Positions 1 through 54,285 of a DNA stretch of 54,756 bases are shown here, one piece after another. Below the pieces are notes generated by a model. That model was given only the letters and a program-made list of their open reading frames with translations. It ran no database searches and had not been told where the DNA came from. The stretch is taken from positions 1 to 54,756 of IMG/VR virus record IMGVR_UViG_3300020173_000001; one strand, given 5' to 3'. The position numbers were made by a program, and so were the translations under genes. This DNA comes from a virus. Numbering within the stretch: the first letter of the stretch is position 1; each line of letters opens with the position of its first letter.

Positions 1-127
1 ATACGGAGACCCCCCGGATGGCCCATGCCCCCGGCCTCTAAGGAGGCTATGCGTGTCTGAATCCGTAGGATTATGAGCTACTTACAATGCTAAAGCATTG
101 TTATCTATTGTTTTTTAAAACAATAAG
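1..127. repeat. Terminal direct repeat, left copy
   Basis: These 127 bases are identical to 54630-54756. The length matches a common maximum assembler k-mer, so the repeat most likely marks a circular contig rather than physical terminal redundancy. It contains hairpins at 84-101 (7-bp stem, 4-nt loop) and 106-125, and the GC-rich start of the divergent control region. Confidence 0.95.
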
Positions 128-300
128 GGATTCTTGTCCTCTAAAATACAAGTATTTTAAGGGGAATTTTTGGGAGTAACCCCAAGGGGTTAGGTTATGG
201 TCAACCCTAAAGGGTCAAGGCGCAGAGGCATACCCCTAGCTTTTCCTTGCGCATAATGCTCACCAAAAGATCAGAAAGTTTCCCCTAAAGGGGAAGTCAA

Positions 301-319
301 TCACGGAAATTCCGAGAAT
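301..319. promoter_or_regulatory. 19-bp dyad, copy 1
   Basis: TCACGGAAATTCCGAGAAT. The arms TCaCGGAA and TTCCGaGA surround one central base. This copy lies in the leader 110 bp upstream of the first gene, between two C/G-run hairpins. Confidence 0.8.
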
Positions 320-410
320 AGCCAACCCCCTAAAGGGGTTGACAATGGGATCGAATTAGGGTTACTTTGTAAGGGCTTCATCGGCAAATCGATGAGGCAG
401 CAACCTTAAC

Positions 411-427
411 TTAATTCGGAGAATTAA
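411..427 (+). promoter_or_regulatory. Hairpin carrying the ribosome-binding site of the first gene
   Basis: Inverted repeat with 7-bp arms (411-417 and 421-427) and a GGA loop. The Shine-Dalgarno GGAG is 418-421, at the apex of the hairpin, which ends one base before ATG 429. The same architecture precedes the second gene. Confidence 0.75.
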
Positions 428-428
428 C

Positions 429-1043
429 ATGACAAAATCAGCTACTTTACCTACGGTAACCTTGGACAGCAAATTCACTGTAGGTCGTAAGACCTATACT
501 TTGACTGATGGAATCAGTCATGCCGTAGCTTGTTATGACAAGCTTTACCTGATCCAAGAGGATCAGTTAGCTCTCTACAGAGAGCTTGGAAACATCTTGC
601 TTCAGATTGAAAATCTGTTCGGTGGTGACAAGAAAGCCTACGGCTCCTTTATCAGTAAAACTGATATGTCGAATGAGAACATCAGCTCTGCTGATAAGTA
701 TGATGCCAAATGGATTGCCACTCACTGGACTAAAGTCCAGAAGTTAAACAAAGCTGGTAAGCTTTCAGCACTTGGCGTATCTTCGATACGGAAGATTGTT
801 CTGGAAGCTCATCCTGAGCTTCGTAAGAAGCCTAAAGCTTCTTCGGCTGGTAACACCTCGAAGGGCAAGCCGAAGGCTTCTGAACAGCCTAGTAAGGCTG
901 AGGAGATCATCAAGAACACTGTCTTTGAGACAGTGGTAGCCAAGAACGAAAAGGAACTTGCAGAGCAAGTTTATGAAGCTCTTGAAGCCGGAGGCTTTAA
1001 CAGATCCACATTTGCAAAAGAGCTTGCAAAGCTCTTCAAGTAA
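429..1043 (+). CDS. Unknown early protein encoded by a hairpin-saturated frame
   Basis: First gene of the left arm, 204 residues. I do not recognise a family. The N-terminal 130 residues look globular, with a helical stretch near residues 42-65 reading LALYRELGNILLQIENLF. A Lys/Ser/Pro-rich linker (about 131-157) follows, then a short charged helical tail. The ATG at 429 is fixed by GGAG at 418-421 in a hairpin loop. About 20 perfect short hairpins fill the frame, so codon choice seems constrained by structure. A C(TTCG)G hairpin follows the stop. Position suggests an early host-takeover or regulatory protein, but nothing in the sequence proves that. Confidence 0.8.
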   Translation: MTKSATLPTVTLDSKFTVGRKTYTLTDGISHAVACYDKLYLIQEDQLALYRELGNILLQIENLFGGDKKAYGSFISKTDMSNENISSADKYDAKWIATHWTKVQKLNKAGKLSALGVSSIRKIVLEAHPELRKKPKASSAGNTSKGKPKASEQPSKAEEIIKNTVFETVVAKNEKELAEQVYEALEAGGFNRSTFAKELAKLFK

Positions 1044-1050
1044 ATCATTT

Positions 1051-1068
1051 AGCCCCCTTCGGGGGGCT
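1051..1068 (+). terminator. UUCG-loop hairpin after the first gene
   Basis: Seven-bp GC stem (1051-1057 with 1062-1068) around a TTCG loop, eight bases after the stop. There is no T-run after it, so it may be a weak terminator or a 3' stabilising/processing hairpin. Confidence 0.55.
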
Positions 1069-1074
1069 ATTCAA

Positions 1075-1093
1075 TCTCGGAAATTCCGAGAAT
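1075..1093. promoter_or_regulatory. 19-bp dyad, copy 2 (perfect arms)
   Basis: TCTCGGAAATTCCGAGAAT. The two 8-bp arms are exact inverse complements around a central A. The site lies between the hairpin after the first gene and the ribosome-binding hairpin of the second. Confidence 0.85.
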
Positions 1094-1096
1094 AAC

Positions 1097-1115
1097 TTTA
1101 AATCGGAGATTTAAA
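1097..1115 (+). promoter_or_regulatory. Hairpin carrying the ribosome-binding site of the second gene
   Basis: Arms of 8 bp (1097-1104 and 1108-1115) with a GGA loop. GGAG is 1105-1108 and the ATG at 1116 abuts the hairpin. This copies the design before the first gene with different arm sequences, so the structure rather than the sequence is conserved. Confidence 0.75.
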
Positions 1116-1301
1116 ATGGAATATTGTGGGGTTCAAATCTTGGAGTATTCAGATACTGAATACTGTTTTTGCTATCAAGGTCGTTTAATAAACGACAGAC
1201 ATAGTTTACCAGTTCTCCTTAAAAAGGAGAGTGACCATTGGGTTAACAAACATAAAGCCGAAGGCTTTATAGATTGTTTGATTGCTCTTGGTGAAATATA
1301 A
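1116..1301 (+). CDS. Unknown small early protein
   Basis: 61 residues, no family recognised; rich in aromatic residues and Cys in the first 25 residues. The start is set by the hairpin-borne GGAG. Four perfect hairpins with 7-8 bp stems occupy nearly half of the frame (1144-1164, 1180-1196, 1214-1230, 1252-1270), as in the preceding gene. Dyad copy 2 lies upstream and an intrinsic terminator follows, so the gene is probably transcribed as its own unit or closes the first one. Confidence 0.75.
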   Translation: MEYCGVQILEYSDTEYCFCYQGRLINDRHSLPVLLKKESDHWVNKHKAEGFIDCLIALGEI

Positions 1302-1304
1302 AAG

Positions 1305-1330
1305 AAGCTCCCTTCGGGGAGCTTTTTTTT
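1305..1330 (+). terminator. Intrinsic terminator after the second gene
   Basis: Eight-bp stem (1305-1312 with 1317-1324), TTCG tetraloop closed by C-G, and an eight-T run (1323-1330). This is a textbook rho-independent terminator. Another hairpin (1334-1352) and dyad copy 3 follow directly. Confidence 0.9.
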
Positions 1331-1357
1331 GTTTATACTTCTTTGAAGTATAGTCGA

Positions 1358-1376
1358 TCACGGAAATTCCGTGATT
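1358..1376. promoter_or_regulatory. 19-bp dyad, copy 3 (symmetrised variant)
   Basis: TCACGGAAATTCCGTGATT. Together with A1357 it gives perfect 9-bp arms at 1357-1375. It lies after the terminator of the second gene and is the only copy whose right arm ends in GTGATT. Confidence 0.8.
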
Positions 1377-1449
1377 GATTTTTTTTCTTTTGTATGTGTG
1401 TAGCTAATTACATGCCGACAAAAGTCTATCAAGAATAGGAGTACATGCC

Positions 1450-1605
1450 GTGAACTTTATATTATTTTTTGCTTGGTTATTAATACTTGTATCTACTTCA
1501 AGTATATTATTAATAGTAGCTTATACTACTATTAATCCTATAATATTATTATCATTACTACCTGTAGTAATGTTACTTTCTGTTTTAGCTTTTGATCGGG
1601 GGTGA
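1450..1605 (+). CDS. Small two-helix membrane protein, GTG start
   Basis: 51 residues, almost entirely hydrophobic, with two predicted membrane helices (about residues 2-25 and 30-46) and a short charged tail ending DRG. AGGAG at 1437-1441 is spaced 8 bases from GTG 1450. The frame carries the 11-bp and 9-bp hairpins at 1509-1536 and 1553-1572. No family is recognised. A small early inner-membrane protein could act in superinfection exclusion or host takeover, but that is only a guess. Confidence 0.65.
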   Translation: MNFILFFAWLLILVSTSSILLIVAYTTINPIILLSLLPVVMLLSVLAFDRG

Positions 1606-1691
1606 TCATGCGTGTATGTTTCTATGATGATGAGGGGTTTATGTTTTCTTATCTTACCTGTCGTGACATGCGTCAAGTATCTAAGATACTT
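1483..1691. repeat. Further AT-rich hairpins
   Basis: The array continues with larger AT-rich inverted repeats: 1483-1505 (7-bp stem), 1509-1536 (11-bp stem, 6-nt loop), 1553-1572 (9-bp stem, 2-nt gap) and 1675-1691 (8-bp arms around one base). They lie inside two small reading frames (1450-1605 and 1608-1757). Isolated strong hairpins occur later, at 2275-2293, 2770-2790 and 2934-2950, and the density then falls. Confidence 0.75.
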
Positions 1692-1757
1692 AAACGTTTC
1701 CCTAGTAATGCAAAACTAATCACGGAAAATCCGAGAATGAAAAGGAGAATAAAATGA
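1608..1757 (+). CDS. Small basic protein overlapping dyad copy 4
   Basis: 49 residues starting MRVCFYDDEG and ending in a basic run (RMKRRIK). A G-run at 1598-1602 may serve as ribosome-binding site. The stop TGA overlaps the next ATG (ATGA), suggesting coupling. The last third of the frame is written across dyad copy 4, so the tail sequence may simply reflect the element. Unknown function; moderate confidence that it is translated. Confidence 0.5.
   Translation: MRVCFYDDEGFMFSYLTCRDMRQVSKILKRFPSNAKLITENPRMKRRIK
1720..1738. promoter_or_regulatory. 19-bp dyad, copy 4
   Basis: TCACGGAAAATCCGAGAAT, one base off consensus in the right arm. It lies inside the 3' end of the small frame 1608-1757 and just before the AAAAGGAG ribosome-binding site of the next gene. 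Confidence 0.75.
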
Positions 1758-1918
1758 ATTATGCTATACTTGTTTTGAATAAAGATGGTGAAGTTATCTT
1801 TGATAGTGGGCCATATGATGGCGACTGTGAGGTAGCTGGGCGAGCTATGAAACGTGCCGCCAATAGGTGGGAAAAGCGTGGCTACGAAGTAGAATTTCGT
1901 GAAAGAAAAGGAGAATAA
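1754..1918 (+). CDS. Unknown small protein
   Basis: 54 residues beginning MNYAILVLNKDG; a short beta-hairpin start and a helical charged second half. AAAAGGAG at 1739-1746 fixes the ATG at 1754. The ATG overlaps the upstream stop by ATGA. The next gene starts two bases after this stop. No family recognised. Confidence 0.65.
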   Translation: MNYAILVLNKDGEVIFDSGPYDGDCEVAGRAMKRAANRWEKRGYEVEFRERKGE

Positions 1919-1919
1919 C

Positions 1920-2156
1920 ATGAGTAACGTACCTTTAGATTTAGGTAATGGATATACCTTATCCATTGTTGCCGATACTGGCGGCTTAGTAGAGGTAGCA
2001 CTAATACATGATGATCATGGATTTATTAATACAAGTTTGTGGTTTTATGATTTGACTAAGGCATCAGATTTTTATGATGATGTAGTGAGACACATGAATG
2101 CCGATCAATTAATAATTGCTTTGGTAAAAGCAAAAGCATATGCAAAAGGAGAATGA
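1920..2156 (+). CDS. Unknown small acidic protein
   Basis: 78 residues, no family recognised. AAGGAG at 1907-1912 sets the start at 1920; an in-frame ATG at 1899 lacks such a site. The protein alternates beta-like stretches with an acidic patch (residues 30-60). It is part of a tightly spaced string of small genes. Confidence 0.7.
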   Translation: MSNVPLDLGNGYTLSIVADTGGLVEVALIHDDHGFINTSLWFYDLTKASDFYDDVVRHMNADQLIIALVKAKAYAKGE

Positions 2157-2157
2157 C

Positions 2158-2391
2158 ATGCATATAGAACACATTGCAGAGAACAAGGTTGTTGTTCACA
2201 AGAAGTCTATGGTATCAGGTAGGCTAAACTCTATGCTTTTACCTACGACTCAAGGTAAGATAGAGTACTGGATTGAATCAGGTAAACTGATTCAGGATGT
2301 CATGCCTGATTTAAATGATAATCAACGTGAGTTCTTGATGTCAGGTATTACACCTCGTGAATGGAATGATATGTTTGGTGAGGAGGATTAA
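2158..2391 (+). CDS. Conserved small phage protein ending in an EWNDMF-type motif
   Basis: 77 residues. AAGGAG at 2146-2151 selects ATG 2158. The C-terminal half (NDNQREFLMSGITPREWND) is a pattern I know from many small podovirus proteins of unknown role, where the segment before the end reads roughly REF..GIT..EW. A 7-bp hairpin lies at 2275-2293. No enzymatic motif is visible. Confidence 0.75.
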   Translation: MHIEHIAENKVVVHKKSMVSGRLNSMLLPTTQGKIEYWIESGKLIQDVMPDLNDNQREFLMSGITPREWNDMFGEED

Positions 2392-2394
2392 ACT

Positions 2395-2526
2395 ATGCCT
2401 AAGTGTGAAAACTGTGGTGACGAAGAAGAAGTTCTGTATTATACAGAATGGGGGTATGAGTGCGGTGATCTATGTGAAGTGTGCTCAGAAATGTTTCTAA
2501 ATATGGAGGATGAAGATGCAGATTAA
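2395..2526 (+). CDS. Putative small zinc-binding protein
   Basis: 43 residues with CENC near the N-terminus (C4, C7) and a second Cys group (C23, C27, C30), then an acidic tail. The spacing is that of a small zinc ribbon. GAGGAG before the ATG supports translation. The stop lies within the next gene's start region, so the two overlap slightly. Function unknown; nucleic-acid or protein binding is likely for such ribbons. Confidence 0.65.
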   Translation: MPKCENCGDEEEVLYYTEWGYECGDLCEVCSEMFLNMEDEDAD

Positions 2527-2722
2527 CAAACGTGACAGGTCTGCCCTACGTGCCGACAAATATTGGCGGTCTATATGGCATCGACAGATGCTGTTTAAAA
2601 CAAAACCCTTGACATCTGTTTCATCCTGTGACAGAACTAAGGAAATTAATGGCAACAAGGAGTTAAGCCAATGTCCAGATCCTACCTCGTCTATCAGTTC
2701 AGACCAGAAGTCTATGACATAA
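2516..2722 (+). CDS. Unknown small basic protein
   Basis: 68 residues, basic N-terminal half (RDRSALRADKYWRSIWHR), polar Ser-rich tail. GGAGG at 2505-2509 sits six bases before ATG 2516; an ATG at 2510 is too close to it. It overlaps the next gene by 52 bases in another frame, so the tail may be poorly constrained. Confidence 0.5.
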   Translation: MQINKRDRSALRADKYWRSIWHRQMLFKTKPLTSVSSCDRTKEINGNKELSQCPDPTSSISSDQKSMT

Positions 2723-3069
2723 TTAATGAGAACCCTCAATCAGAGATAGCAAGGATTGCTTTTGATCTAAGACTTCTTAATGAGAAGTCTGCAGAGCAGA
2801 GTGTCAATGATGCCTTGTTTCATAACATGTATTACCCAACCAAGTTCCTGCATCTAGGTGTGCTATCTGAATCTGTTGACCCACTAGAGGCTGTCTTTGA
2901 TGCAGGGAATGGCTATGGTAAAGCTAAGGTTACCACCCTTGCTAAGGGTGACACTAGCCTATCTGTAGGTAATATAATTGTACACTTGCAGCAGAACAAG
3001 GTATATCTATGTATGCCTACTGGATGGCATGAGCTTTCACGAGAGCTAGACTTTTGCCTTAAATTGTAA
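2671..3069 (+). CDS. Unknown early protein
   Basis: 132 residues, mixed alpha/beta, no family recognised. AAGGAG precedes ATG 2671. The stop TAA is fused to dyad copy 5. Two strong hairpins (2770-2790, 8-bp stem; 2934-2950, 7-bp stem) show the left-end structural habit persisting at lower density. Confidence 0.75.
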   Translation: MSRSYLVYQFRPEVYDIINENPQSEIARIAFDLRLLNEKSAEQSVNDALFHNMYYPTKFLHLGVLSESVDPLEAVFDAGNGYGKAKVTTLAKGDTSLSVGNIIVHLQQNKVYLCMPTGWHELSRELDFCLKL

Positions 3070-3088
3070 TCACGGAAATTCCGAGAAT
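3070..3088. promoter_or_regulatory. 19-bp dyad, copy 5
   Basis: Consensus TCACGGAAATTCCGAGAAT, fused to the TAA stop of the gene ending at 3069 and followed at once by the GGAG ribosome-binding site of the next gene. Confidence 0.85.
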
Positions 3089-3098
3089 GGAGAATCAA

Positions 3099-3491
3099 AT
3101 GAAAACCGAAATATATTATAACCTACATAAGCATGTCTTTTCTGTAAGGAAAAGAAACGGTAAGGTTCAATGGCATACTAATAGTATCATAGCACATAAG
3201 CCTGTTTTTGCAGTGCAACCTGCAGGGTGGGCAAAGACTCAGGATGAGCAGGTCAAGAATGTACATGCGTTTGTTAGACCTCAAAGCATTGAGGTGGATG
3301 CTGATCTATGGTTTCAAGACCCGGACTATGCCCATGATCCTGACATAGACAGGCTTGAGCGTGTCAGGTATAACCCATATCATGCGAACACATTTGTAGA
3401 TGAGCACGATGAGCCGATCTACCATGCTGAGGTTGCTTATTTGTATATTGACAAACAAAATAAACCTGTCATAAAGGTGTTCAGAACTTAA
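3099..3491 (+). CDS. Unknown early protein
   Basis: 130 residues, rich in His, Trp and Asp; no family recognised. The start is taken at ATG 3099 with GGAG at 3089-3092. The ATG at 3087 lies within dyad copy 5 and has no site. Beta-like N-terminal half (HKHVFSVRKRNGKVQWH) and an acidic middle. The gene lies between dyad copies 5 and 6. Confidence 0.75.
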   Translation: MKTEIYYNLHKHVFSVRKRNGKVQWHTNSIIAHKPVFAVQPAGWAKTQDEQVKNVHAFVRPQSIEVDADLWFQDPDYAHDPDIDRLERVRYNPYHANTFVDEHDEPIYHAEVAYLYIDKQNKPVIKVFRT

Positions 3492-3503
3492 ACGAAAATC
3501 TAA

Positions 3504-3522
3504 TCACGGAGATTCCGAGAAT
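3504..3522. promoter_or_regulatory. 19-bp dyad, copy 6, doubling as ribosome-binding site
   Basis: TCACGGAGATTCCGAGAAT. The A-to-G change at 3511 creates GGAG (3508-3511), nine bases before an ATG at 3521 that begins inside the motif. In this copy the element itself appears to serve as the translation start region. Confidence 0.8.
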
Positions 3523-3667
3523 GCTTTACTACATAGAAAATCAAGAAGGTTTATGGTGGTCTAACACAGATGGTTGGTGTAATAATACACGATCTTTATT
3601 TAACCAAAATGAAAAAGAGATTTTTAATCTACCCATAGGTGGTGAATGGAAGGAGTTAATACAATGA
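3521..3667 (+). CDS. Small protein starting inside dyad copy 6
   Basis: 48 residues beginning MLYYIENQEGLWWSNTDGW. The ATG overlaps the last bases of the dyad, and the GGAG made by the variant dyad lies nine bases upstream. The stop overlaps the next gene's ATG (ATGA). Aromatic-rich; unknown function. The coupling and the changed dyad base argue that it is real. Confidence 0.65.
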   Translation: MLYYIENQEGLWWSNTDGWCNNTRSLFNQNEKEIFNLPIGGEWKELIQ

Positions 3668-4362
3668 CTTTATCCACACAAGAAATGAATGATCTACTTA
3701 AATATAACTCAGACATAGGCATGGCTGCATCTGCTAGGCCAATTAACGAGACTGAAAATCACGATGGTTCTTGTGACTACAGAACAGATTACTGTGATGA
3801 GACTTGTTATAATGTTAAGTTATATAGGATTTATCCAGACATGGCTAAACGTGATGACAGATGCGAGACTATCTGGCAGAAACTAAACAAGTCTAACTCT
3901 GACTTCACTAAATTCTTTAGTCGTAAACGGTACGATACTAGTCGTGTTCGTCACATGACCAGAGGCGAAGCCTTCAAAGATGTAATTGATGTGTATCGTG
4001 TCAAGACTATGTGCCTACTTAACCCGGATACTACATGGTGGATTCCTACCAGAGCATGGCGTAATCCACGCCTCAAAGCTCTGATTGAGAAAGAGCTTAT
4101 GCCTCTACCTAACTGTGCCATTAATGCATCACTCGACCCATCCAACAGCAAAGCTGAATGGAAAATGTTGATTGATGACGATTGGAATATCATGTTCTAT
4201 GGTGATGATGACTTGACATCTGATCCTGTTTATGGAACAAGAATGTTCCTATGCCCTAAGACCCACAAGGATCTCAAGGGTCACTGCAAGGACTGCAAGG
4301 CAGGTTGCTTTGCACAAAAGACTATTAACCGCACACAGATTGTGCATCTATCAGAACACTAA
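3664..4362 (+). CDS. Cys-rich protein resembling the phage 'gene product 88' family
   Basis: 232 residues. The start at 3664 follows AAGGAG at 3650-3655; an upstream ATG at 3646 would precede that site. An N-terminal Cys cluster (CDYRTDYCDETCYNVKLYR) and a C-terminal cluster (CPKTHKDLKGHCKDCKAGC) bracket a Trp-rich middle. This layout recalls the gp88-type domain found in phages, thought to be a metal or Fe-S binding protein of unknown activity. The family call is from memory of the pattern and is moderate. Confidence 0.65.
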   Translation: MTLSTQEMNDLLKYNSDIGMAASARPINETENHDGSCDYRTDYCDETCYNVKLYRIYPDMAKRDDRCETIWQKLNKSNSDFTKFFSRKRYDTSRVRHMTRGEAFKDVIDVYRVKTMCLLNPDTTWWIPTRAWRNPRLKALIEKELMPLPNCAINASLDPSNSKAEWKMLIDDDWNIMFYGDDDLTSDPVYGTRMFLCPKTHKDLKGHCKDCKAGCFAQKTINRTQIVHLSEH

Positions 4363-4381
4363 TCACGGAATTTCCGAGAAT
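4363..4381. promoter_or_regulatory. 19-bp dyad, copy 7
   Basis: TCACGGAATTTCCGAGAAT, fused to the TAA stop at 4360-4362 and followed by AAAGGAG for the gene at 4395. Confidence 0.85.
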
Positions 4382-4394
4382 GAAAGGAGTCGAT

Positions 4395-4559
4395 ATGGGT
4401 ATCGAAAATAAACTTGAAGAAGCTATAACTAAATGGACAGACAGTTTAGAGATAGATCAGTTAATTAATTACGTCCAAGAAGATCTCTGGGTGTATTACA
4501 CTGAAAGCGCAGATGAAGAAGAAGCTTTAGAATTTATAACTGAAATGGAAGTAGGATAA
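4395..4559 (+). CDS. Small acidic protein
   Basis: 54 residues, strongly acidic (tail DEEEALEFITEMEVG), helical. AAAGGAG precedes ATG 4395, and dyad copy 7 lies directly upstream. Small acidic early proteins can mimic DNA or bind host factors, but there is no motif to support a specific role. Confidence 0.65.
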   Translation: MGIENKLEEAITKWTDSLEIDQLINYVQEDLWVYYTESADEEEALEFITEMEVG

Positions 4560-4572
4560 AAGGAGAAGACTA

Positions 4573-5412
4573 ATGCCATTTGATACAACAACATCATTCG
4601 TACCAGAGCACTTGGACTTTGAAGTAGAGTTCGAGGAAACTAAATTCAAAGACAAGAAGTATGTAATCAATGCTAATACAGGTGAATACCTTGGTATTGT
4701 GGGCAAGGACTTTACTTGTGCCAATCATGGTGACTTCTTTCGTAATGTCGTAGACACTGCGACTCAGGAGTTACAAGAAGGTGATTTACATAATGCAGAG
4801 TTTAACTTCAGGACTGCTCGTGGTGGTGCTTGGGCTATGCTCGACATCACATTACCTAGCATGAAGACTGTAATAGAAACTGATCGACATGAAACTGAGA
4901 TAGGTAATCGTATTATATCATTACATGGTATTGATGGGTCATGCTCTAATCAGGTATTCTTTGGTGCTATTGATTTCTTTTGCACTAATGGATGTATACG
5001 TGGTGATCACGATAAGATTCGCAGGAAGAACACTTCTAATTTCTCACTTAGTTCATTCATAAATGAGCTATCTAATTTGCGGTCTGACTTTTATGAACAG
5101 TCTATCAAGATGAAAACATGGGCGCAGACTAGTCTCAAAGATGTAGATGTAGAAGCATTGCTAGAAGCAATGATACCATCAGAACGTAAAGCTAAAAAGA
5201 TGTATCAGCTATACCGTTCAGAAGCATTTACTCGTGGAGAAAACAAGTGGGCCTTGTACTCTGCCTTCACTAACTATGCATCTTATGCAGATAATCGTAA
5301 TGGTTTTAATCTGCGTAATACAGGTAATGACACACAAGCTACCTCAATGTGGGGTAGAGAACAGGAGGTATCTAAGTGGGTTAGCGATGATCGCTTTTTA
5401 CTAGCAGCTTAA
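4573..5412 (+). CDS. DUF932-like phage protein
   Basis: 279 residues. It resembles the DUF932/TIGR03299 phage- and plasmid-borne family, including the central segment IDFFCTNGCIRGDHDKIRRK and the C-terminal WALYSAFTNYASYA, where family members carry a conserved W.L..A.T pattern. The biochemical function is unknown; members are common among early genes of phages and on plasmids. AAGGAG lies upstream of ATG 4573. The stop is fused to dyad copy 8. Confidence 0.8.
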   Translation: MPFDTTTSFVPEHLDFEVEFEETKFKDKKYVINANTGEYLGIVGKDFTCANHGDFFRNVVDTATQELQEGDLHNAEFNFRTARGGAWAMLDITLPSMKTVIETDRHETEIGNRIISLHGIDGSCSNQVFFGAIDFFCTNGCIRGDHDKIRRKNTSNFSLSSFINELSNLRSDFYEQSIKMKTWAQTSLKDVDVEALLEAMIPSERKAKKMYQLYRSEAFTRGENKWALYSAFTNYASYADNRNGFNLRNTGNDTQATSMWGREQEVSKWVSDDRFLLAA

Positions 5413-5431
5413 TCACGGAATTTCCGAGAAT
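5413..5431. promoter_or_regulatory. 19-bp dyad, copy 8
   Basis: TCACGGAATTTCCGAGAAT, fused to the TAA stop at 5410-5412 of the DUF932-like gene and followed by AAAGGA for the gene at 5446. This is the last clear copy. None was seen in the rest of the left arm or in the right arm. Confidence 0.85.
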
Positions 5432-5445
5432 AGAAAGGAACTACA

Positions 5446-5718
5446 ATGACTATGACACCAGAAGAAATCGCAAAGAACCATCAAGAGTGGGCAGACAAAC
5501 GAGAAGCACGTAGGATAGAGCTTGAAGAAAAATGCAGTAACTTAACAGAGGAACAAATAACTGCAATTAAATTTGCCTATGAAACAATACAAGAAGCGGA
5601 AGGCAATCTTAGCGAAATGTTTGACATTACGATAGATGATGCTAGAAGTATATCTAAAGCAGAAAGTAAGTTAAGAATGTCTTTTCCTCATTTATGTAAG
5701 CACCCTTATTATTCTTAA
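5446..5718 (+). CDS. Unknown helical protein
   Basis: 90 residues, largely helical and charged, no family recognised. AAAGGAA precedes ATG 5446, directly after dyad copy 8. It is the last gene preceded by the dyad. Confidence 0.7.
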   Translation: MTMTPEEIAKNHQEWADKREARRIELEEKCSNLTEEQITAIKFAYETIQEAEGNLSEMFDITIDDARSISKAESKLRMSFPHLCKHPYYS

Positions 5719-5740
5719 TACAAACACAAAGGAGTTAAAC

Positions 5741-5959
5741 ATGTTTGTACTTGTAGCAACTAAACCACTCAATGACGGAACAAAAGGGTTTCGTTTCAAC
5801 CTCTTAGGTAAGAAAGGATTGTACCGTAAACGTAATCGTGACTCTCGTGGTTGGTTTAAATATGAACCACTTAGTACTATGAACGCCTATCACTTTGGCA
5901 AACGTAGTTTGTATATTGAACATGCTTATGGACGTAAGCTGTATCACTTTGCAGGGTAA
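5741..5959 (+). CDS. Unknown small basic protein
   Basis: 72 residues, rich in Arg, Lys, Tyr and Phe, beta-like. AAAGGAG precedes the ATG. Three bases separate its stop from the next start. Unrecognised. Confidence 0.65.
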   Translation: MFVLVATKPLNDGTKGFRFNLLGKKGLYRKRNRDSRGWFKYEPLSTMNAYHFGKRSLYIEHAYGRKLYHFAG

Positions 5960-5962
5960 CAC

Positions 5963-6223
5963 ATGGATTACTACGTAGTAGAAATGTATGTTGACGAATT
6001 GGAAGAGTGCCTCATTATGAGGTGCTCGACTATCGAAAGTGCTAGTCTTATCTGTGAAAAACTAGAAGAAGCATTTCCTAATGCTGTCTTTGACATCATG
6101 GATACTGAACCTGTAATAAAAATGAGAGACTATAACTTGGAAAGGTATGAAGAATTGCGAAGTGTTTTGACATCTAAACCAAGAAGTCCACAACTAATTG
6201 TGATAGAAGGGGGTAAGCGTTAG
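5963..6223 (+). CDS. Unknown small protein
   Basis: 86 residues, alternating beta and helical stretches, no family recognised. It lies in the tight string of small genes before the integrase; spacing suggests co-translation with its upstream neighbour. Confidence 0.65.
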   Translation: MDYYVVEMYVDELEECLIMRCSTIESASLICEKLEEAFPNAVFDIMDTEPVIKMRDYNLERYEELRSVLTSKPRSPQLIVIEGGKR

Positions 6224-6227
6224 TGTT

Positions 6228-6428
6228 ATGTACTATGTAGAAGTTATCCATAAGGATGAAAAAGTAGCTGGATCTTATCAAGATCTTCTTTCGGATAGTG
6301 TTGATGTAGCAAATAAACTTTCGTTTGCAGATTGCACTGTAACTATATACGAATGTGTTAAGACATTATGTAGCATTGATAAAATCAATAAGGTTTTATC
6401 TTGGAAAGATGACGGTTACAGAACATAA
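6228..6428 (+). CDS. Unknown small protein
   Basis: 66 residues beginning MYYVEVIHKDEKV, a short beta/helix fold with three Cys. No family recognised. It is the last gene before the integrase hairpin. Confidence 0.6.
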   Translation: MYYVEVIHKDEKVAGSYQDLLSDSVDVANKLSFADCTVTIYECVKTLCSIDKINKVLSWKDDGYRT

Positions 6429-6433
6429 ACTTT

Positions 6434-6462
6434 AGTGGGGTATTGCATTGCAGTACCCTACT
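6434..6462 (+). terminator. Long stem-loop before the integrase
   Basis: Nine-bp stem with one G-T pair (6434-6442 with 6454-6462), a 1x1 internal loop and an inner 3-bp stem (TGC/GCA). There is no T-run, so it may instead be a factor-dependent terminator, an attenuator for the integrase or part of an attachment site. It occupies most of the gap between 6428 and the integrase. Confidence 0.45.
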
Positions 6463-6507
6463 ATGCTACTCTTAATTTAAAGTATTACTATGAGGATTAT
6501 AAATACT

Positions 6508-7593
6508 ATGTATAAATATACTAAAAAAGTAACCTTAAAGAGTGGTACTGCATGGAAATTTGTACCACCTCAAGATGCTATTGATTCTGGTGTCGTACAG
6601 AGACAGACCTTTCGTGATGGTAGGGCTGCACGATATGAGATACCTAGACTAGTAGAAAAGGTGGAAGCCTTTAGACGTGGTGATATTGTCGCAGGAAATA
6701 TTGGGCCTAACTCTACGATATTACAGATTTATAAATACTATGTAACAACTACACACTTTAGAGAGTTAGCATATAACTCACAAAGAACTTACGATAGCAC
6801 TATGGATGCAATTGCTAATACAAGTATTAATAATAAAAAATTAGGTGCTATTAAAATAAAAGATCTTACTGCTATGCATTGTACAGAAGCTTATGAAGAG
6901 TGGTGTGAAAGTGTTAGTGTGTCTAAAGGGAATCAGTGTGCAAGAATCTTTTCATTATTAATAAATTTTTGTATATCTATTGATTTAATTATGTATAACC
7001 CTATGTCCAAAGTTCGTAAAAGAAAACATGAAACAAGGAATACAACATGGACACAGGAACAAGTAGAAAAGTTTCTTGATACTGCATTCACTGATTTTGA
7101 TTGGCGTAATGTAGGATTAATTGTTTTGATGTGCTATGAGTGGGCACAAAGACCTACTGATATAAGATTATTAAAGTGGTCTTCAATTAATTTTAAAGAT
7201 AAAAGAGTTAAAATAAAACAAACTAAACGTGGTGCAGAAGTAGAGCTACCAATCTCTGATGAGATTATGGAGATGCTCACTCAGCAGAAAAAAGATTGGG
7301 ACTTCCAAGACTATGTAGTACCACACCAGAGGCCATCAGATGGTGCTTACAGTCCGTTAAACATTGCTCAGGTATCGGTACTCGCTAACCAAGTTAAAGA
7401 AGCTGCAGGACTGCCATCTGATTTGCGTGTTGGAGATTTAAGGAAGAGTGCCATTGTGGAAATGATCGACTCAGAGGTAGATCATCTAGCTATTATGTCA
7501 GTGACAGGACACCAGAATATCTCGTCACTTAATCCATACCATAAGCATACCTATGCTGCAGCTAAGTCTGCATTAGAAAGGAGAAAGAAATGA
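6508..7593 (+). CDS. int: Tyrosine recombinase / integrase
   Basis: About 361 residues from ATG 6508 (GAGG at 6492-6495); an in-frame ATG at 6490 would add six residues. Counting from 6490, an Arm/core-binding region spans about 70-180 and a catalytic domain 185-360. Active-site residues are Arg221 (AQRPTDIRLLKW), Lys in KQTKRG (244-246), Arg318 in GDLRKS, His341 in TGHQN and nucleophile Tyr350, nine residues after that His as is usual. The normal His of HxxR is Gly315, a variant. The enzyme would integrate the phage at a host att site, implying temperate ability. The next gene overlaps by ATGA. Confidence 0.93.
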   Translation: MYKYTKKVTLKSGTAWKFVPPQDAIDSGVVQRQTFRDGRAARYEIPRLVEKVEAFRRGDIVAGNIGPNSTILQIYKYYVTTTHFRELAYNSQRTYDSTMDAIANTSINNKKLGAIKIKDLTAMHCTEAYEEWCESVSVSKGNQCARIFSLLINFCISIDLIMYNPMSKVRKRKHETRNTTWTQEQVEKFLDTAFTDFDWRNVGLIVLMCYEWAQRPTDIRLLKWSSINFKDKRVKIKQTKRGAEVELPISDEIMEMLTQQKKDWDFQDYVVPHQRPSDGAYSPLNIAQVSVLANQVKEAAGLPSDLRVGDLRKSAIVEMIDSEVDHLAIMSVTGHQNISSLNPYHKHTYAAAKSALERRKK

Positions 7594-9310: not shown

Positions 9311-9437
9311 GTATATACCGTACATAATTTCCTTATCTGTTGTCGTAGGTAGTATTGCATTCATACCTCTTTGGCTGCTATACTTCGGTTTCAGAAATTT
9401 AAAAACCTTTATCAAAGGAAAAACAAATGTCAGATAA
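9297..9437 (+). CDS. Small membrane protein with TTG start (candidate)
   Basis: 46 residues with one long hydrophobic stretch (SLSVVVGSIAFIPLWLLYFG) and a basic tail. AAGGA ends about nine bases before TTG 9297. It overlaps the genes on both sides. The coding case rests on the ribosome-binding site, the membrane helix and the otherwise empty 110-base gap. Confidence 0.45.
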   Translation: MLVSEYIPYIISLSVVVGSIAFIPLWLLYFGFRNLKTFIKGKTNVR

Positions 9438-11025
9438 TCCACATTCACCCTGCCCTTATGAAGACTGTAGCTCTTCAGATGCATTCAATTGGAATGATGA
9501 TGGTTACGGTCACTGTCACTCATGCAGTAGGGCATACCCAATGAAAAACATGCCCACTACATTTGATTGGGTTAAGCAGGAGTACCCCTTGAAAGAACGT
9601 ATTCAACCACAAAACATACAAGTCACTGGTGTGAAGTATGATGGCATCAGAGGTATTGATCCTGATGTATGCAAGCTATATGGTATACAAATACAGACTG
9701 GCCCGAACGGTGAGGATGTACGCTATGCATATAAGTACCCACATACAATTAAATATCGTATGTGTAATGACAAATCAAAGTCATGGGTCAAAGATCGTGG
9801 CTTAGGTATGAACCACCTGTTTGGCCCTGAGTTCAATGCTGGTACAGGTAAACGTATCTATCTTACAGAAGGTGAGTTTGATGCAGCTAGTTTGTATCAG
9901 ATCCTTGGCAAAACATTTCCTGTTAAGTCTTTACCTTCTGCATCTATTGGTGAGAAGTTCATCAAGCACAATCTAAAATACCTAACATCATTCAAAGAAA
10001 TTGTGTATGCAGGTGAGCTTGATGATGCAGGACGTAGGGCTGCAGATAAATTGTATCAGGCATTCCCTGAGAAGTTTTATTATGTACCTATGACTGAGTG
10101 CAAGGATGCTAATGAGTTTCTTGAGACAGGTAAGCATGAGAAACTTATGTGGGCTGCACGATCACCACAACGTTATACACCAGAGAATTTCTTTTGTTCT
10201 GATGCTGATGTAGAAGCAGCAATCAAGAATGAAAATCCATATGAGTATGTACCAACAGGTCACACTGGCTTGGATGAAAAGATACGTGGTATGGTTAAGG
10301 GTGGGCTTACGTTTATCAAAGCCCCTCGTGGTACTGGTAAGACTGAGGTGATCAGATACTTTGAGACAGGGTTACTTAACAATGGTGATACATCAGTAGC
10401 AATGCTGCACATGGAAGAAATGAAGTCTACTACCTACCGTGCTATGGCTACATATCATCTAGGTGTAAACGTTAGAACTAAAGAAGATGCTGCCAACAAC
10501 AACGTGTCAGAGCAAAACGTTATTGAAGCGGCTAAGATTGCAACCAAAGGTGAAAGGACAATTATCTTTGAGATGATGTCACACGATGACCCACTCAAGC
10601 TGCTAGATTATGTACGTCTAGCTGTTACAGTCTATGGTGCTGGCTATATATTTATTGACCATGTACAACGTCTAGCCTACCTATCTAACTCAGGTGTAGA
10701 TGGTGCTACTAGTACATTGACTACACTAGGCTCACGTATGGCTCAGTTAGCTAAGGAGCTAAACATTGGTGTAATCTTTATCTCTCAAGTCAATGATGAT
10801 GGACGTACTAAGTATGCTGCATCACTTGAGGAAGAGGCAATCATTTGTATTAAGCTGGAACGTACAGCAGAAAGTGAGGACGAGGTAGAGCAGAATACAA
10901 CAACCTTTATCGTAGATAAGAACAGACCCTTTGCTAAGTTAGGTAGGGCTGGATCAGTATACTATGATCCATCAACAACCATACTAAGAGAGGATTTGTT
11001 TACACAAGAATCACAGGTGGCGTAA
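9427..11025 (+). CDS. Primase-helicase, T7 gp4-like
   Basis: 532 residues. An N-terminal zinc ribbon (C9, C14, C30, C33) is followed by a TOPRIM primase region with LTEGEFD (E148, E150, D152) and GELDDAG (197-202). A RecA-type replicative helicase follows with Walker A APRGTGKT (299-306), Walker B YIFIDH (D411) and a motif-3-like FISQ (451-454). It would prime and unwind DNA at the phage fork with the polymerase next door. The first TOPRIM Asp of DxD is Glu197. The stop overlaps the polymerase ATG by one base (TAATG). Confidence 0.93.
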   Translation: MSDNPHSPCPYEDCSSSDAFNWNDDGYGHCHSCSRAYPMKNMPTTFDWVKQEYPLKERIQPQNIQVTGVKYDGIRGIDPDVCKLYGIQIQTGPNGEDVRYAYKYPHTIKYRMCNDKSKSWVKDRGLGMNHLFGPEFNAGTGKRIYLTEGEFDAASLYQILGKTFPVKSLPSASIGEKFIKHNLKYLTSFKEIVYAGELDDAGRRAADKLYQAFPEKFYYVPMTECKDANEFLETGKHEKLMWAARSPQRYTPENFFCSDADVEAAIKNENPYEYVPTGHTGLDEKIRGMVKGGLTFIKAPRGTGKTEVIRYFETGLLNNGDTSVAMLHMEEMKSTTYRAMATYHLGVNVRTKEDAANNNVSEQNVIEAAKIATKGERTIIFEMMSHDDPLKLLDYVRLAVTVYGAGYIFIDHVQRLAYLSNSGVDGATSTLTTLGSRMAQLAKELNIGVIFISQVNDDGRTKYAASLEEEAIICIKLERTAESEDEVEQNTTTFIVDKNRPFAKLGRAGSVYYDPSTTILREDLFTQESQVA

Positions 11026-12854
11026 TGATATTTGATGTAGAAGCTGATGGCCTCTTAGATGATGCCACTAAGATACATTGCATGTCGTTTACTAGGGATG
11101 GCTTTCCTATGTGTTCGACAAGTGATTATGGTGCAATGAGAAACATATTACTTAATCAAAAAGTTTTGATAGGTCATAACATTGTACGTTACGATGTACC
11201 ATTACTAGAAAAAATCTTAGGTATTAAGATCAAAGCTAAGTTGTATGATACATTACCTATGTCATGGGTAATTAATACTGATAGACCTAAGCACAGTCTT
11301 GAGTCTTTTGGTGAAGACTTTGGTGTACCAAAGCCTGAGATAAATGATTGGGTAAACTTATCTCAAGAAGAGTACATACATAGGTGTCAAGAAGATGTTA
11401 AGATAACTAAAAGACTTTGGGAAAATCTTATCCAAAGATTCATGATGGTTTACAAAGATAAATCTAACCTTGATAGATTCTTTCAGTACCTTACATTCAA
11501 AATGAAATGTGCTTATGCTGCAGAAGAAAGTGGCTGGAAGCTTGACGTTGATTTAGCTAAAGATTGTGTAGCTAAACTTAAAGCTGAACAGGACGAAAAG
11601 ATTACTGAGTTAAAAACAGTAATGCCTATGCGTACTTTGTTTAGAAAGAAGTCAAAGCCAAAGGTAATGCATAAGAAAGATGGTTCTCTATCTAAACAGG
11701 GTGCTGAATGGAATGCTTTACTTCTAGAGCATATGCATCCCTCTGACTATATCGGTGAAATAGAAATAGTAAAAGGAGTTGAAGAGCCTAACCCTAAGTC
11801 AAGTGATCAAGTAAAGGCATGGCTGTTTGATCTAGGTTGGAAGCCCTGTACATTTAAGTTTGTTGAGGATCGTAAGATACCACAAGTACGAAAGAATGGT
11901 GAGCTTACTAACTCAGTTAAATTATTAATTGATGCCAACCCTACCGTTGGTGTACTTGATGGCCTTACCGTTATTCAACACAGGCTTGGAATCTTTAAAG
12001 GTATGTTAGAGTGTGAAGTTGATGGTTATGTTAAGGCAGAGATTGAAGGTCTTACTAATACACTAAGATTCAAACACAAAAAGCCTTTAGTAAATCTTCC
12101 GGGTATAGATAAGCCTTGGGGTAAAGAAATACGTGGTTGTCTTGTAGCACCAGAAGGTTATGTATTATGTGGTGCAGATATGACATCACTTGAAGATACA
12201 ACTAAGCGTCACTATATGAAACCATATGACCCTAAGTATGTAGAAGAAATGTCTCAGGATGGATTTGATCCACACTTAGACTTAGCTAAACATGCTGGTG
12301 CGGTGACACAAGAAGATATCGACAAGCATAATGCAGGTCAAATTAATTTAAAGTCACTACGAAAAAACTATAAGGTTGTTAATTACTCAGCTACCTATGG
12401 TGTTGGTGCAGCAAAACTATCCAGAGAAACTGGTATGACAGAACAAGAAGCTAAAAAACTTTTGAATGCATACTGGGAACGTAACTGGTCTGTCGCAGAG
12501 TTTGCTGCAGACAACCTAAAGAAAGTAAAGCTTATCAATGGACAAATGTGGGTACAAAATCCTGTCAGTAAGTTCTGGCATACTCTTCGATATGAGAAGG
12601 ATGTATTCTCTACACTCAATCAATCTACAGGTGCTTACTGTTTTGATAAGTGGGTAGCTTACTATCGTATGGCAAGACCAAATATTGTAGGTCAGTTCCA
12701 CGATGAATCAATTAACCTTGTTAAAAAAGGTGACGAACAACAACACAAACTTAAACTTGTGTCTGCTATTAATAAATTAAATAAGGAGTTAAAACTTAAT
12801 GTTGATCTAGGTATAGATGTACAGTTCGGAAATAAATATTCCGAGATACATTAA
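11025..12854 (+). CDS. polA: A-family DNA polymerase with 3'-5' exonuclease
   Basis: 609 residues. The exonuclease domain has DVE (D4, E6), Exo II (HNIVRYD, D57) and Exo III Asp124, where the usual Tyr position holds Arg120. The polymerase domain has motif A Asp385 (ADMTSLE), motif B R446-K450-Y454-Y458 and motif C HDE (559-561). The residue equivalent to E. coli Phe762 is Tyr454, as in T7. There is no CxxCxGxG DnaJ zinc motif, unlike HMO-2011. The 3' end holds a degenerate relative of the dyad (about 12829-12850). Confidence 0.94.
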   Translation: MIFDVEADGLLDDATKIHCMSFTRDGFPMCSTSDYGAMRNILLNQKVLIGHNIVRYDVPLLEKILGIKIKAKLYDTLPMSWVINTDRPKHSLESFGEDFGVPKPEINDWVNLSQEEYIHRCQEDVKITKRLWENLIQRFMMVYKDKSNLDRFFQYLTFKMKCAYAAEESGWKLDVDLAKDCVAKLKAEQDEKITELKTVMPMRTLFRKKSKPKVMHKKDGSLSKQGAEWNALLLEHMHPSDYIGEIEIVKGVEEPNPKSSDQVKAWLFDLGWKPCTFKFVEDRKIPQVRKNGELTNSVKLLIDANPTVGVLDGLTVIQHRLGIFKGMLECEVDGYVKAEIEGLTNTLRFKHKKPLVNLPGIDKPWGKEIRGCLVAPEGYVLCGADMTSLEDTTKRHYMKPYDPKYVEEMSQDGFDPHLDLAKHAGAVTQEDIDKHNAGQINLKSLRKNYKVVNYSATYGVGAAKLSRETGMTEQEAKKLLNAYWERNWSVAEFAADNLKKVKLINGQMWVQNPVSKFWHTLRYEKDVFSTLNQSTGAYCFDKWVAYYRMARPNIVGQFHDESINLVKKGDEQQHKLKLVSAINKLNKELKLNVDLGIDVQFGNKYSEIH

Positions 12855-18949: not shown

Positions 18950-21900
18950 TTATTCTGTCATCTTTTGGAATCTTGATAGATCTCTTAGTGACTTTTCAGT
19001 ATTTAAATACTGTTGTAAAATAAATAACTCGTTTTGTTCTAAGTCTTCTACTTCACCTAAGCCTAATTCTTTTACTGCCTTTTGAATACCCTTCTTAGGA
19101 TACTTAGATGTTATGTCGTATTGCAGTGAAATCACTTCTTCAGGACCAGAGTACTGCATTCTTAAAAATGTTTTAGCTAAATCTTTTACTCTTGGTACAA
19201 CATCACCATTCCAATGATCTAGTTTTTGTTGTTGAGTTAATTTATTAAACCAATTACTTTCTAATAGTAGGCTAGACTCAGCTTCCATAATATCAAACAC
19301 AATACCATTAAGAGCATTAGCTGCTTTAGGTGCTTGATCTCTTATCTTCTTAGCAGTATTTAAATCAAAATCTCTAAGACCCATTTTATTCATCACACGT
19401 TGTGTGTCAGTAAGTCTAATGATTCTAGCACCTAATACTTTAGTTGATTGTATATCAGCCCTACCACCTGCTGCAGTCTCTCTAGGATCTGCTAGTGGTT
19501 TACCTGTAAACAGAGGAATGATATTATCTACATAACGAAATGCATTATTAATTAATTTATTATTTTGAACCCTGTCAATTGGTGCTGCATTTTCACCTCT
19601 TGCAACACCAGCTAAAATATTCAATGGTTCTAGCGGCCTGATCAAAGGATTAACATATTGAGTTGCTAATGTAGTGCCAACTATTTCCATACCTTTAACT
19701 ACATCTCTTCTTTCAGGATCAGCCATAAATTTAATAGCTTCTAATGTATCACGTTGTGTTTTATCTAAGTTTCTAAGTAACCCTGAAAGTCCAAAATCTT
19801 GAGTAAACTGACCAAAAGCTTTTATTGCTTGCTGGTATTCACCCATTAAACTAAGTGCCATTATTCTTGCTGCACCTTTGTATGCTGAAACAGGGAAGTC
19901 ATATTGTTGACTAAAGACCTCACCTGTTAAAGGATCTTGAGCCGCATACATAGGCAAACCCTGCTTTACATTTTCTATCTCTTGTTGTGCTAGTGTGTAA
20001 ATAATACCAGCACTAACTAATGACCTAGATATAGCTTCTTCGTAAGACATATCTTCATACTTACCTGCAGCTTTTAAAATAACGTTTACACCTGTAGTGT
20101 TTTTACCTAAAAAACCTATAGTGTTATTAAAGAATCTTCCAAAAGGAACTATCATACCAAGACCCGGCATATTTCTAGCGTCCTCTAACATACCAGCAAG
20201 TTTACCTATGCCATCACTAGACTTGTAAGACTTAGAAAATATAGCTTCTATTGTATCATCAACAGCACTAGTTTCTATATCACGATATTCTTTTGAGGCC
20301 ATAAATTTTTGAAGTGTCATGTCTCCAATATTTTGTGACCGATAAAAATCATTCCAACCTTTACCTGTAGCAATCCTAAGTTTTTTATCCATTTGAAATA
20401 AAAACTCTTGCGATTTAGTAAATGCATCTTGTGCTTGTACTAAAGATAGTCTTTGAATTAAGTCAATTTTTTCATCGATAGCTAATCCAACAAGTTTTTG
20501 ATCTGGGGTAAATTTGCCACCAGTTAAAAGTTGATTAGTGTTTTCTACACCACCGGGAAGTACGCTGTTTAATTTTTCCAATGCCTCAGAATTTCTTTGC
20601 AGCGCTGATTCAAAAGCAGTGTAAGTCATGTCAGCATCTAATAAAAATCTTACTCTTTGGGCATTGGATTCAATAAGTGCTTTAGCTATTCTTTGTGTAT
20701 TAGCACCTTCTTCTGTCATTCCTATAAGCTTTTGCAGAGTACCTTTACCTGCATAAATTAATGCTACAGACATATCTGATGCACTTTGTAATGCGGAGTT
20801 CGCACCCCAACCAATTACATTTAAAGCACTGGTAGAAGGGTGTGAAACTAATAATCTTATTAATCTATTTTGAACTTTAGCAGTACCTTCCATAAACTTA
20901 CTAGGTTCTTTAGGTTTCTTTTTAGTGTCCTTTACAAACCCACCATCTAAAGCAGAGTCATACAAATCTTTAAGTTGTTTATCACTAATAGACATACCTA
21001 GTTGTCTAGCTGAGTTACCTGCTGCACCAAGTGCAGTACCTGCTTGAGATATTTTATACGCAAAAATGTCACCTATATCACGACCAGTAACCTTAGATCT
21101 AGGTATTACTTTTCCATCTTCACCTTTAACTTTAATTTTATTACCAGTTGCTTTTTCTATAGAACGTAATAGTCCTTGAGCTTCTTTATCACTTACTTCA
21201 GCAATTAGGTCTGCCATCCAGTTACTAAACTTATCATCTTCAAATCGTTTAGCCCATACGAATCCACGTTCATATGCAACCTGAGTCATACCTTTTAATA
21301 TAACATTGCCTTCTTTATCAGCATGACCAAACAATAAGTTTTGTACAAACTCTACACCAAAATCTTTACTATCTTTAGATAGTACTGCACCACCTTTTAA
21401 TTTTGTTTTCCAATCTCTACCAACATTAACTTTATCTTGATTTACATATGCACCTATAGTTTCAGAAACCTCAGAAACAAAACCCTCAGTTTTTGGTTCA
21501 GGCATTACTATACTAGGCAGTGCTGTATCTGACACACCCCTTCTAGCAACTAATCCTGCTTGCAATCCACCAAGAAGAATACCACCAAGTGCAGCAACAC
21601 CTACTGATAAATAACTAATATCTTCTTGTGCTTCTACATCTACCATACCCTCTTGATACAGGTACTCCATACCTGAGCCAACCATAGCATCAACACTAGT
21701 TACAACACCTATCTCTGTAATAGCTGCCTTAGTAGCTAGTCTTTGTGCTGCAGTTTTACCTAATACATTCTGTGAGTATGCAGCTATCTTAGTTTTAGAT
21801 CCAGTACGAGCAGCTTTTACTCCATCAGTAAATACTTTAGTACCTACTTTTTTAGCAGCTTCTTCTGTACCTTCTTTTTTCATTGCCTCAAGAGCAACCC

Positions 21901-22465
21901 TTTGTGCTCCTTTAGTTCCTACACGAAGAGATCCACCAGCAACAGCTTTACCAATTAAACCACCAACAAGGTTTACTGGATCAAGTACTACACTTCTACT
22001 AAAGTCCATTAGTCCTTCAGCTTTTTCAGCAATAGATGTTTCTTTACTAAAAATACCAGCCATATTCTCATACAACTGGTACGCTTTGGCAGCCCTAGCC
22101 TTTTTATCTGCATCATCTTTTATGTCGTTAATGTAGTCCATCTCAGCTAAACCCCTTACGGAGTTTCCTGATACTACACCTCTACGATTATTTAAAAAAC
22201 TATCAACAACAGATTCTTTGGTTTCATCTTTTATAGATTCATCACCATATCTGTCACGCATATACCCCTCTACAATAGAGTAGGCATAGTCATTTTCTAC
22301 TATATCATCTTGAGTATATGTGCCAGCTTCTGGTAGTGCAGGAGAAGAATCTACTTTAATATCTTCTGTTATATATTTATCAAAGTAGTTTTCACGATCT
22401 TTTTTTTCTTCTTCTTCAGTATCTACAGGCTCTGTTTCAAGATACTTATCAAAGTAATTTGTCAT
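18950..22465 (-). CDS. Large internal virion / ejection protein
   Basis: 1171 residues, last gene of the right arm. The N-terminus carries a duplicated NYFDKY box (residues 3-8 and 27-32). Glycine-rich hydrophobic patches occur around 155-180 and 285-310 and could insert in membranes; the rest is helical. Size and place after the tail genes match gp16-like proteins that leave the capsid with the DNA. No lytic-transglycosylase motif seen; a separate lysozyme is encoded three genes upstream. Start overlaps the preceding stop by one base (TAATG). Confidence 0.7.
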   Translation of the reverse strand: MTNYFDKYLETEPVDTEEEEKKDRENYFDKYITEDIKVDSSPALPEAGTYTQDDIVENDYAYSIVEGYMRDRYGDESIKDETKESVVDSFLNNRRGVVSGNSVRGLAEMDYINDIKDDADKKARAAKAYQLYENMAGIFSKETSIAEKAEGLMDFSRSVVLDPVNLVGGLIGKAVAGGSLRVGTKGAQRVALEAMKKEGTEEAAKKVGTKVFTDGVKAARTGSKTKIAAYSQNVLGKTAAQRLATKAAITEIGVVTSVDAMVGSGMEYLYQEGMVDVEAQEDISYLSVGVAALGGILLGGLQAGLVARRGVSDTALPSIVMPEPKTEGFVSEVSETIGAYVNQDKVNVGRDWKTKLKGGAVLSKDSKDFGVEFVQNLLFGHADKEGNVILKGMTQVAYERGFVWAKRFEDDKFSNWMADLIAEVSDKEAQGLLRSIEKATGNKIKVKGEDGKVIPRSKVTGRDIGDIFAYKISQAGTALGAAGNSARQLGMSISDKQLKDLYDSALDGGFVKDTKKKPKEPSKFMEGTAKVQNRLIRLLVSHPSTSALNVIGWGANSALQSASDMSVALIYAGKGTLQKLIGMTEEGANTQRIAKALIESNAQRVRFLLDADMTYTAFESALQRNSEALEKLNSVLPGGVENTNQLLTGGKFTPDQKLVGLAIDEKIDLIQRLSLVQAQDAFTKSQEFLFQMDKKLRIATGKGWNDFYRSQNIGDMTLQKFMASKEYRDIETSAVDDTIEAIFSKSYKSSDGIGKLAGMLEDARNMPGLGMIVPFGRFFNNTIGFLGKNTTGVNVILKAAGKYEDMSYEEAISRSLVSAGIIYTLAQQEIENVKQGLPMYAAQDPLTGEVFSQQYDFPVSAYKGAARIMALSLMGEYQQAIKAFGQFTQDFGLSGLLRNLDKTQRDTLEAIKFMADPERRDVVKGMEIVGTTLATQYVNPLIRPLEPLNILAGVARGENAAPIDRVQNNKLINNAFRYVDNIIPLFTGKPLADPRETAAGGRADIQSTKVLGARIIRLTDTQRVMNKMGLRDFDLNTAKKIRDQAPKAANALNGIVFDIMEAESSLLLESNWFNKLTQQQKLDHWNGDVVPRVKDLAKTFLRMQYSGPEEVISLQYDITSKYPKKGIQKAVKELGLGEVEDLEQNELFILQQYLNTEKSLRDLSRFQKMTE

Positions 22466-24788: not shown

Positions 24789-24800
24789 TTATTTTTCCTA

Positions 24801-54241: not shown

Positions 54242-54285
54242 AAATACTAATTACTAATTATAATTATTAATAGTATTTAGTATTT
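54242..54285. repeat. AT-rich cruciform in the right-arm leader
   Basis: Nine-bp arms (54242-54250 and 54277-54285) with further AT-rich inner pairing. It lies between the two right-arm promoters, so it would form in mRNA from the distal one only. Confidence 0.65.

Follow-up and report, generated by a model that had tools for sequence, protein, structure and literature searches.

Eight symmetric sites in the early region of a marine phage related to HMO-2011 as a candidate dispersed operator array

Genes and sites of the early region

The window, by which we mean the whole stretch of DNA analysed, is a virus contig of 54,756 bases. Its early genes resemble those of the Roseobacter phages CRP-345 and CRP-1 and of Puniceispirillum phage HMO-2011, and its DUF932 protein is 58–70% identical to the counterparts in these three phages. 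Judged by these similarities, the window is a marine phage related to HMO-2011 and CRP-1/CRP-345. HMO-2011-type phages have been described as a dominant marine group (PMC9038755), and CRP-3, a member of the wider group, integrates (PMC6918029, PMC9038755). Behind the HMO-2011/CRP-1-like early genes lies a primase-helicase (9427–12854) like that of CRP-13 and CRP-9, which marks the phage, on gene similarity, as a mosaic that a strict HMO-2011-type definition, by a DNA polymerase with a partial DnaJ domain, might exclude. The window also holds very long minus-strand ORFs (18950–27776; 1171 and 991 amino acids), for which a PHROG match is absent or marginal.

The early region contains the following features.

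301–319, plus strand: site 1, upstream of the conserved putative early promoter and of gene 1
339–368, plus strand: putative early promoter, with an invariant TTGAC(A) at 339–344 and a -10-like TTACTT/TACTTT at 362–368 in the alignment
429–1043, plus strand: gene 1 (204 amino acids), between sites 1 and 2; candidate operator-binding protein
1051–1068, plus strand: GC hairpin AGCCCCCTTCGGGGGGCT between gene 1 and site 2; the same sequence precedes site 2 in relatives
1075–1093, plus strand: site 2, 31 bases past the gene 1 stop and directly after the hairpin; perfect 17-bp dyad
1300–1329, plus strand: intrinsic terminator-like hairpin with a T run, before site 3
1358–1376, plus strand: site 3, a perfect dyad followed by a T run
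1720–1738, plus strand: site 4, just before the ribosome binding site of the ORF at 1754
3070–3088, plus strand: site 5, fused to the TAA of ORF 2671–3069 and preceding the L5 gp82-like gene
3087–3491, plus strand: homologue of gp82 of mycobacteriophage L5 (PF25735, E 1.8e-20)
3504–3522, plus strand: site 6, starting 12 bases past a stop and abutting the ATG at 3521
3646–4362, plus strand: GP88-like gene (PF17338, E 1.6e-5)
4363–4381, plus strand: site 7, fused to the TAA of the GP88-like gene
4573–5412, plus strand: DUF932 gene
5413–5431, plus strand: site 8, fused to the TAA of the DUF932 gene
6490–7593, plus strand: tyrosine integrase

The initial annotation of this DNA had described eight copies of a 19-bp dyad between 301 and 5413. 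All eight are present, as dyads of 17–19 bp with zero to two mismatches each, and dinucleotide shuffles yield 0.00 such copies. The whole 54.7 kb contains no further intact copy, again as claimed, and a looser scan of the window allowing up to two mismatches to TCWCGGANNNTCCGWGA returned the identical eight. The dyad and its places therefore stand, but its length needed revision: the repeat unit is really about 21–23 bp, YAWTCWCGGANNNTCCGWGAWTR. Seven of the eight sites are entirely non-coding, compared with 13.9% of positions 1–5499 (P ~7e-6), and three, those at 3070, 4363 and 5413, are fused to a TAA stop that is in frame.

Several sites overlap or adjoin other signals. Site 1 lies about 110 bp before the start of gene 1, and site 4 falls inside small alternative ORFs or at their end (1602–1757 or 1612–1719). 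In this genome site 3 with its T run (1352–1380) also resembles a terminator. Because a GGAG stands about 10 bases before the ATG at 3521, a plausible Shine–Dalgarno sequence whose deviating G is shared by all 10 distinct orthologous contexts, site 6 probably doubles as a ribosome binding site.

Hairpins at 280–295, 1051–1068 and 1334–1352 directly precede sites 1–3 of the window, and hairpins also occur upstream of several sites in HMO-2011 and the CRP phages. The small ORFs 3521–3667 and 4380–4559, which adjoin sites 6 and 7, are missing in some relatives. A near-palindrome, GCATWATGC, is found at 251–259 of the window, near 1360 in locus L294 and near 54,270 in CRP-345; across lineages, 14 of 30 loci have it 50–240 bp upstream of site 1, and it is rare elsewhere in them. 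One possible role is that of a -10 box that can be read in both directions, placed between two diverging blocks of genes.

Conservation, symmetry and change of the sites

Relatives of the window phage, supplied by a scan of IMG/VR, carry six to eight copies each at syntenic places, and a search of the full records of seven of them placed the sites in the early region only in all seven. These copies support the link to the early region that had been proposed, and the random scatter in genes of relatives that was named as grounds for abandoning it is absent. The core CGGA-NNN-TCCG is unchanged across 70 distinct contexts, which stem from related phages and are not independent draws. In the same contexts each arm independently has A or T at positions ±6 and ±9. 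The combinations at ±6 in 67 exact copies are A/A (40), T/T (10), A/T (9) and T/A (8); pairing is broken at ±6 in 50 of these copies and at ±9 in 55, with all four combinations found.

Copies with unlike arms show an orientation bias of 40 to 10, and orthologues flip. Because several copies in loci L031 and L038 are reversed relative to the window, orientation is a bias, not a rule. The single orientation first reported is thus a weak claim, the more so as the sites at 1075 and 1358 are fully symmetric through 17 bp.

A de novo search for repeated dyads in related phages revealed arrays built on other words: GTCCAANNTTGGAC in CRP-1 and CRP-345, and AGTCCGN4CGGACT in HMO-2011. Across 156 related loci the CRP word has 293 distinct contexts. 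When full-length records are compared the three words are mutually exclusive, each being confined to its own lineage, with 6–8 sites and none of the other words in records of the window type, 3–7 sites in the CRP type and 5 in HMO-2011. CRP sites have AAACC as the left flank and ACTTT as the right flank in 88 cases, against 5 in reverse. Some CRP-type copies fall within gp01 itself, where the protein is predicted to be disordered. In locus L046, CRP dyads at 383–398 and 2131–2146 lie in coding sequence and yield the same peptide, KVSNVGQS, in two unrelated proteins, a DNA constraint made visible in protein.

The sites might instead act in RNA, each intergenic leader carrying a short hairpin for processing, termination or translation; the initial annotation had raised RNA cleavage. 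The CGGA and TCCG arms are able to pair in RNA, the sites lie near stops and ribosome binding sites, and both the Shine–Dalgarno sequence in site 6 and the terminator-like hairpin at site 3 are of this kind. An A to G switch on both arms, of the type described below, would preserve pairing. The mismatches at ±6 and ±9 nevertheless argue against such an element as the general case, as does the copy upstream of the early promoter. Moreover, 93 CRP-type sites carry CC or GT on each arm, and none of them has the fully pairing flanks CC/CC or GT/GT. A search of Rfam gave no hit. We regard an RNA-level role as very improbable. Because the core is invariant and A or T is taken independently on each arm at ±6, a symmetric DNA site fits better than an RNA stem, and from the sequences compared both the existence of the sites and this DNA-level reading appear well supported.

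Two sister phages differ in the word itself. The longer neighbouring genes of loci L322 and L327 are 95–99% identical and the bases around the sites are nearly identical, whereas L322 has GTCCG...CGGAC at all seven listed sites and L327 has GTCCA...TGGAC at all six listed. Gene 1 is 85% identical between the two, with the first 47 residues unchanged and fixed changes after residue 47; it is not the sole diverged gene, as small neighbouring ORFs are 72–94% identical. No residue tracks the A/G operator switch consistently across all genomes. If a DNA-binding protein had changed, both arms would be expected to change at every site together, as they do here. The earlier suggestion that the dyad serves a dimeric DNA-binding protein thus draws support from the relatives as well as from this concerted switch.

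The same observations bear on the idea that the dyads are linkers for recombination, or selfish repeats, placed at gene borders and aiding the movement of small gene cassettes. Site 7 and the ORF that follows are missing together in four loci (L052, L053, L055 and L058), as this idea would have it, but two others (L056 and L038) retain site 7 without the ORF. While the flanks drift, the core stays exact, and passive linkers would not be expected to switch to a new word in concert. We find this account barely credible.

The candidate binder and its mode of action

A promoter element, the other role first offered for the repeat, is not borne out. The conserved TTGACA of the alignment lies about 20–37 bp beyond site 1, and upstream of 121 CRP-type leader sites -10-like boxes are no more frequent than expected (34 seen against 34.4). 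Nor do the sites appear to have promoters of their own, sigma-70-like matches in 1–6500 being at chance (18 versus 18.5).

The protein encoded between the first two sites is in our judgement probably the one that binds them. CRP-345 gp01 and HMO-2011 gene 74 occupy the same place as gene 1 of the window, and the first CRP and HMO sites lie about 230–290 bp upstream of them. Gene 74, which stands between the first two HMO sites, is homologous to CRP gp01 (hhalign 98.4%, E 4e-15). Window gene 1 matches the CRP gp01-family profile (88%, E 3e-6) and matches HMO-2011 gene 74 poorly when compared directly (3.4%). Among 33 loci gathered solely by similarity to the first early protein, at least three dyads, counted as GTCC[A/G]NNNN[T/C]GGAC-type, were present in 28, and the five exceptions had about 2.1 kb or less in view. 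Neither gene 1 nor a comparable array was found in the early regions read of CRP-2, CRP-3, CRP-9, CRP-13, CRP-212 and CRP-738. Two gene-1 alleles that are about 45% identical share one operator word.

Two AlphaFold models of gene-1 proteins (mean pLDDT 78.5 and 72.3) are predicted to be helical, with a helix pair like that of a helix–turn–helix (HTH). Foldseek gave no match to either at E<=0.001, and VIA-align, with Z of at most 5.7, which is uninformative for helical proteins, pointed to no solved relative. Searches of Pfam, PHROG and PDB gave no relative that would mark gene 1 as a DNA-binding protein, and no HTH repressor family was recognised among the early proteins of the window that were scanned. 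Gene-1 prophages numbered 0 in the 394 genomes of a Rhodobacteraceae sample, which is without a positive control.

The array, its conservation and DNA-level symmetry, the lineage words, the association with gene 1 and the concerted change are supported by sequence evidence. From these we infer that gene 1 encodes the binder and that binding represses by blocking elongation. On balance we think it probable that the eight dyads together make up a single array of dispersed operators, bound by a DNA-binding protein of the phage that is probably encoded by gene 1 and has a stoperator-like action on the early operon. A phage-encoded, sequence-specific protein would bind YAWTCWCGGA-NNN-TCCGWGAWTR as a symmetric dimer. 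This binder would most likely be the product of gene 1 (429–1043), which comes first behind the conserved early promoter and has site 1 on one side and site 2 on the other. As the protein accumulates it would fill sites 2–8 inside the early operon and hinder transcription past each gene boundary; we favour an elongation block because these sites lie downstream of the TTGAC(A) promoter, at gene borders, and lack clear promoters of their own. With the regulator gene standing in front, expression of gene 1 could continue as that of the genes downstream of it is reduced. Site 1, further upstream, may block incoming transcription or support autoregulation. We have considered both lysogeny and early shut-off as the purpose that the candidate array could serve in this integrase-bearing phage.

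The same dispersed DNA operators could be bound by another phage protein or by a host factor, and binding could bring about activation or anti-termination, possibilities that we consider rather unlikely. Gene 1 belongs to no recognised DNA-binding family and several small early proteins are unassigned, which leaves room for another binder. The gene-1 family and the arrays, however, co-occur across divergent phages and are absent together, and the sites show no promoter enrichment. Host genomes hold background copies only. A host regulon was sought in a contig scan of 84,980 genomes, which gave 45 single-copy stretches only, and in the Rhodobacteraceae sample, where 10 of 394 genomes had single copies compared with 3 for the reversed control. 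Four matches in Leisingera aquimarina (L067, L076, L094 and L105) are due to chance and lie in copies of one IS110-type transposase gene.

An improbable alternative is that the dyads are partition or genome-organising sites, at which a protein bound near one phage end segregates, silences or organises the genome in the manner of parS or KorB sites instead of adjusting single genes. Several identical dyads are grouped in one region, which fits such a system, and the CRP-type copies within coding sequence indicate that placement is not strictly tied to leaders. Most window sites nonetheless lie exactly at gene boundaries, the phage has a tyrosine integrase instead of plasmid maintenance genes, and no ParA-type protein was seen among the proteins scanned.

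Extending the operator reading beyond the window, we put forward more tentatively that the first early gene of HMO-2011-related phages specifies a regulator of a class not described before, which governs the early operon via symmetric stoperators, and that word and regulator co-evolve. The outcome would be many mutually exclusive specificities, or immunity groups, in phages that are among the most abundant in the sea. If this is true, the shared first gene and the lineage-specific words would offer a direct handle on early-gene timing in HMO-2011-type phages, and whether and how these phages stay dormant, and which exclude one another, would be predictable from sequence alone. The genome papers on HMO-2011-type phages that were consulted never use the words promoter, palindrome or repressor.

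Comparison with known dispersed sites

The stoperators of Cluster A mycobacteriophages, bound by the L5 repressor Gp71, are asymmetric sites of 13–14 bp that are bound by a monomer, and 20–30 of them are spread genome-wide (PMC6550527, PMC9283540). Like the window array, they are many copies of a short site that lie for the most part in small gaps between genes, with a lineage-specific consensus that drifts with the phage. Stoperators are oriented with transcription; copies of the window type show a bias in orientation, and orthologues flip. Cluster A phages, like the window phage, carry an integrase, and the window has homologues of L5 gp82 and of GP88. In contrast, the window sites are dyads of about 21–23 bp whose symmetric core has interchangeable arms, and arrays of the window type comprise 6–8 copies in the early region only. 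The early proteins scanned included none recognisable as Gp71-like. The array would work like the L5 stoperators yet differ in two defining features, as its site is symmetric and its copies are few and early only.

In Cluster K, the SAS is a 13-bp asymmetric word beside start codons, and the ESAS contain inverted repeats with arms separated by a spacer and a consensus that differs between subclusters (PMC3203893). Here too repeats stand at the starts of small genes and the consensus varies by lineage or sublineage. The window site, however, is a compact dyad that also lies upstream of a promoter and, in relatives, inside genes, and placement at start codons in one orientation is not seen, since site 1 is about 110 bp before the start of gene 1 and the relatives' copies flip.

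KorB of the IncP plasmids is one protein that acts at many dispersed palindromic operators. The system proposed for the window would share this arrangement, although no relation in sequence or fold to KorB was found. We regard the array as a variant of dispersed phage operators whose candidate regulator matches no recognised DNA-binding family.
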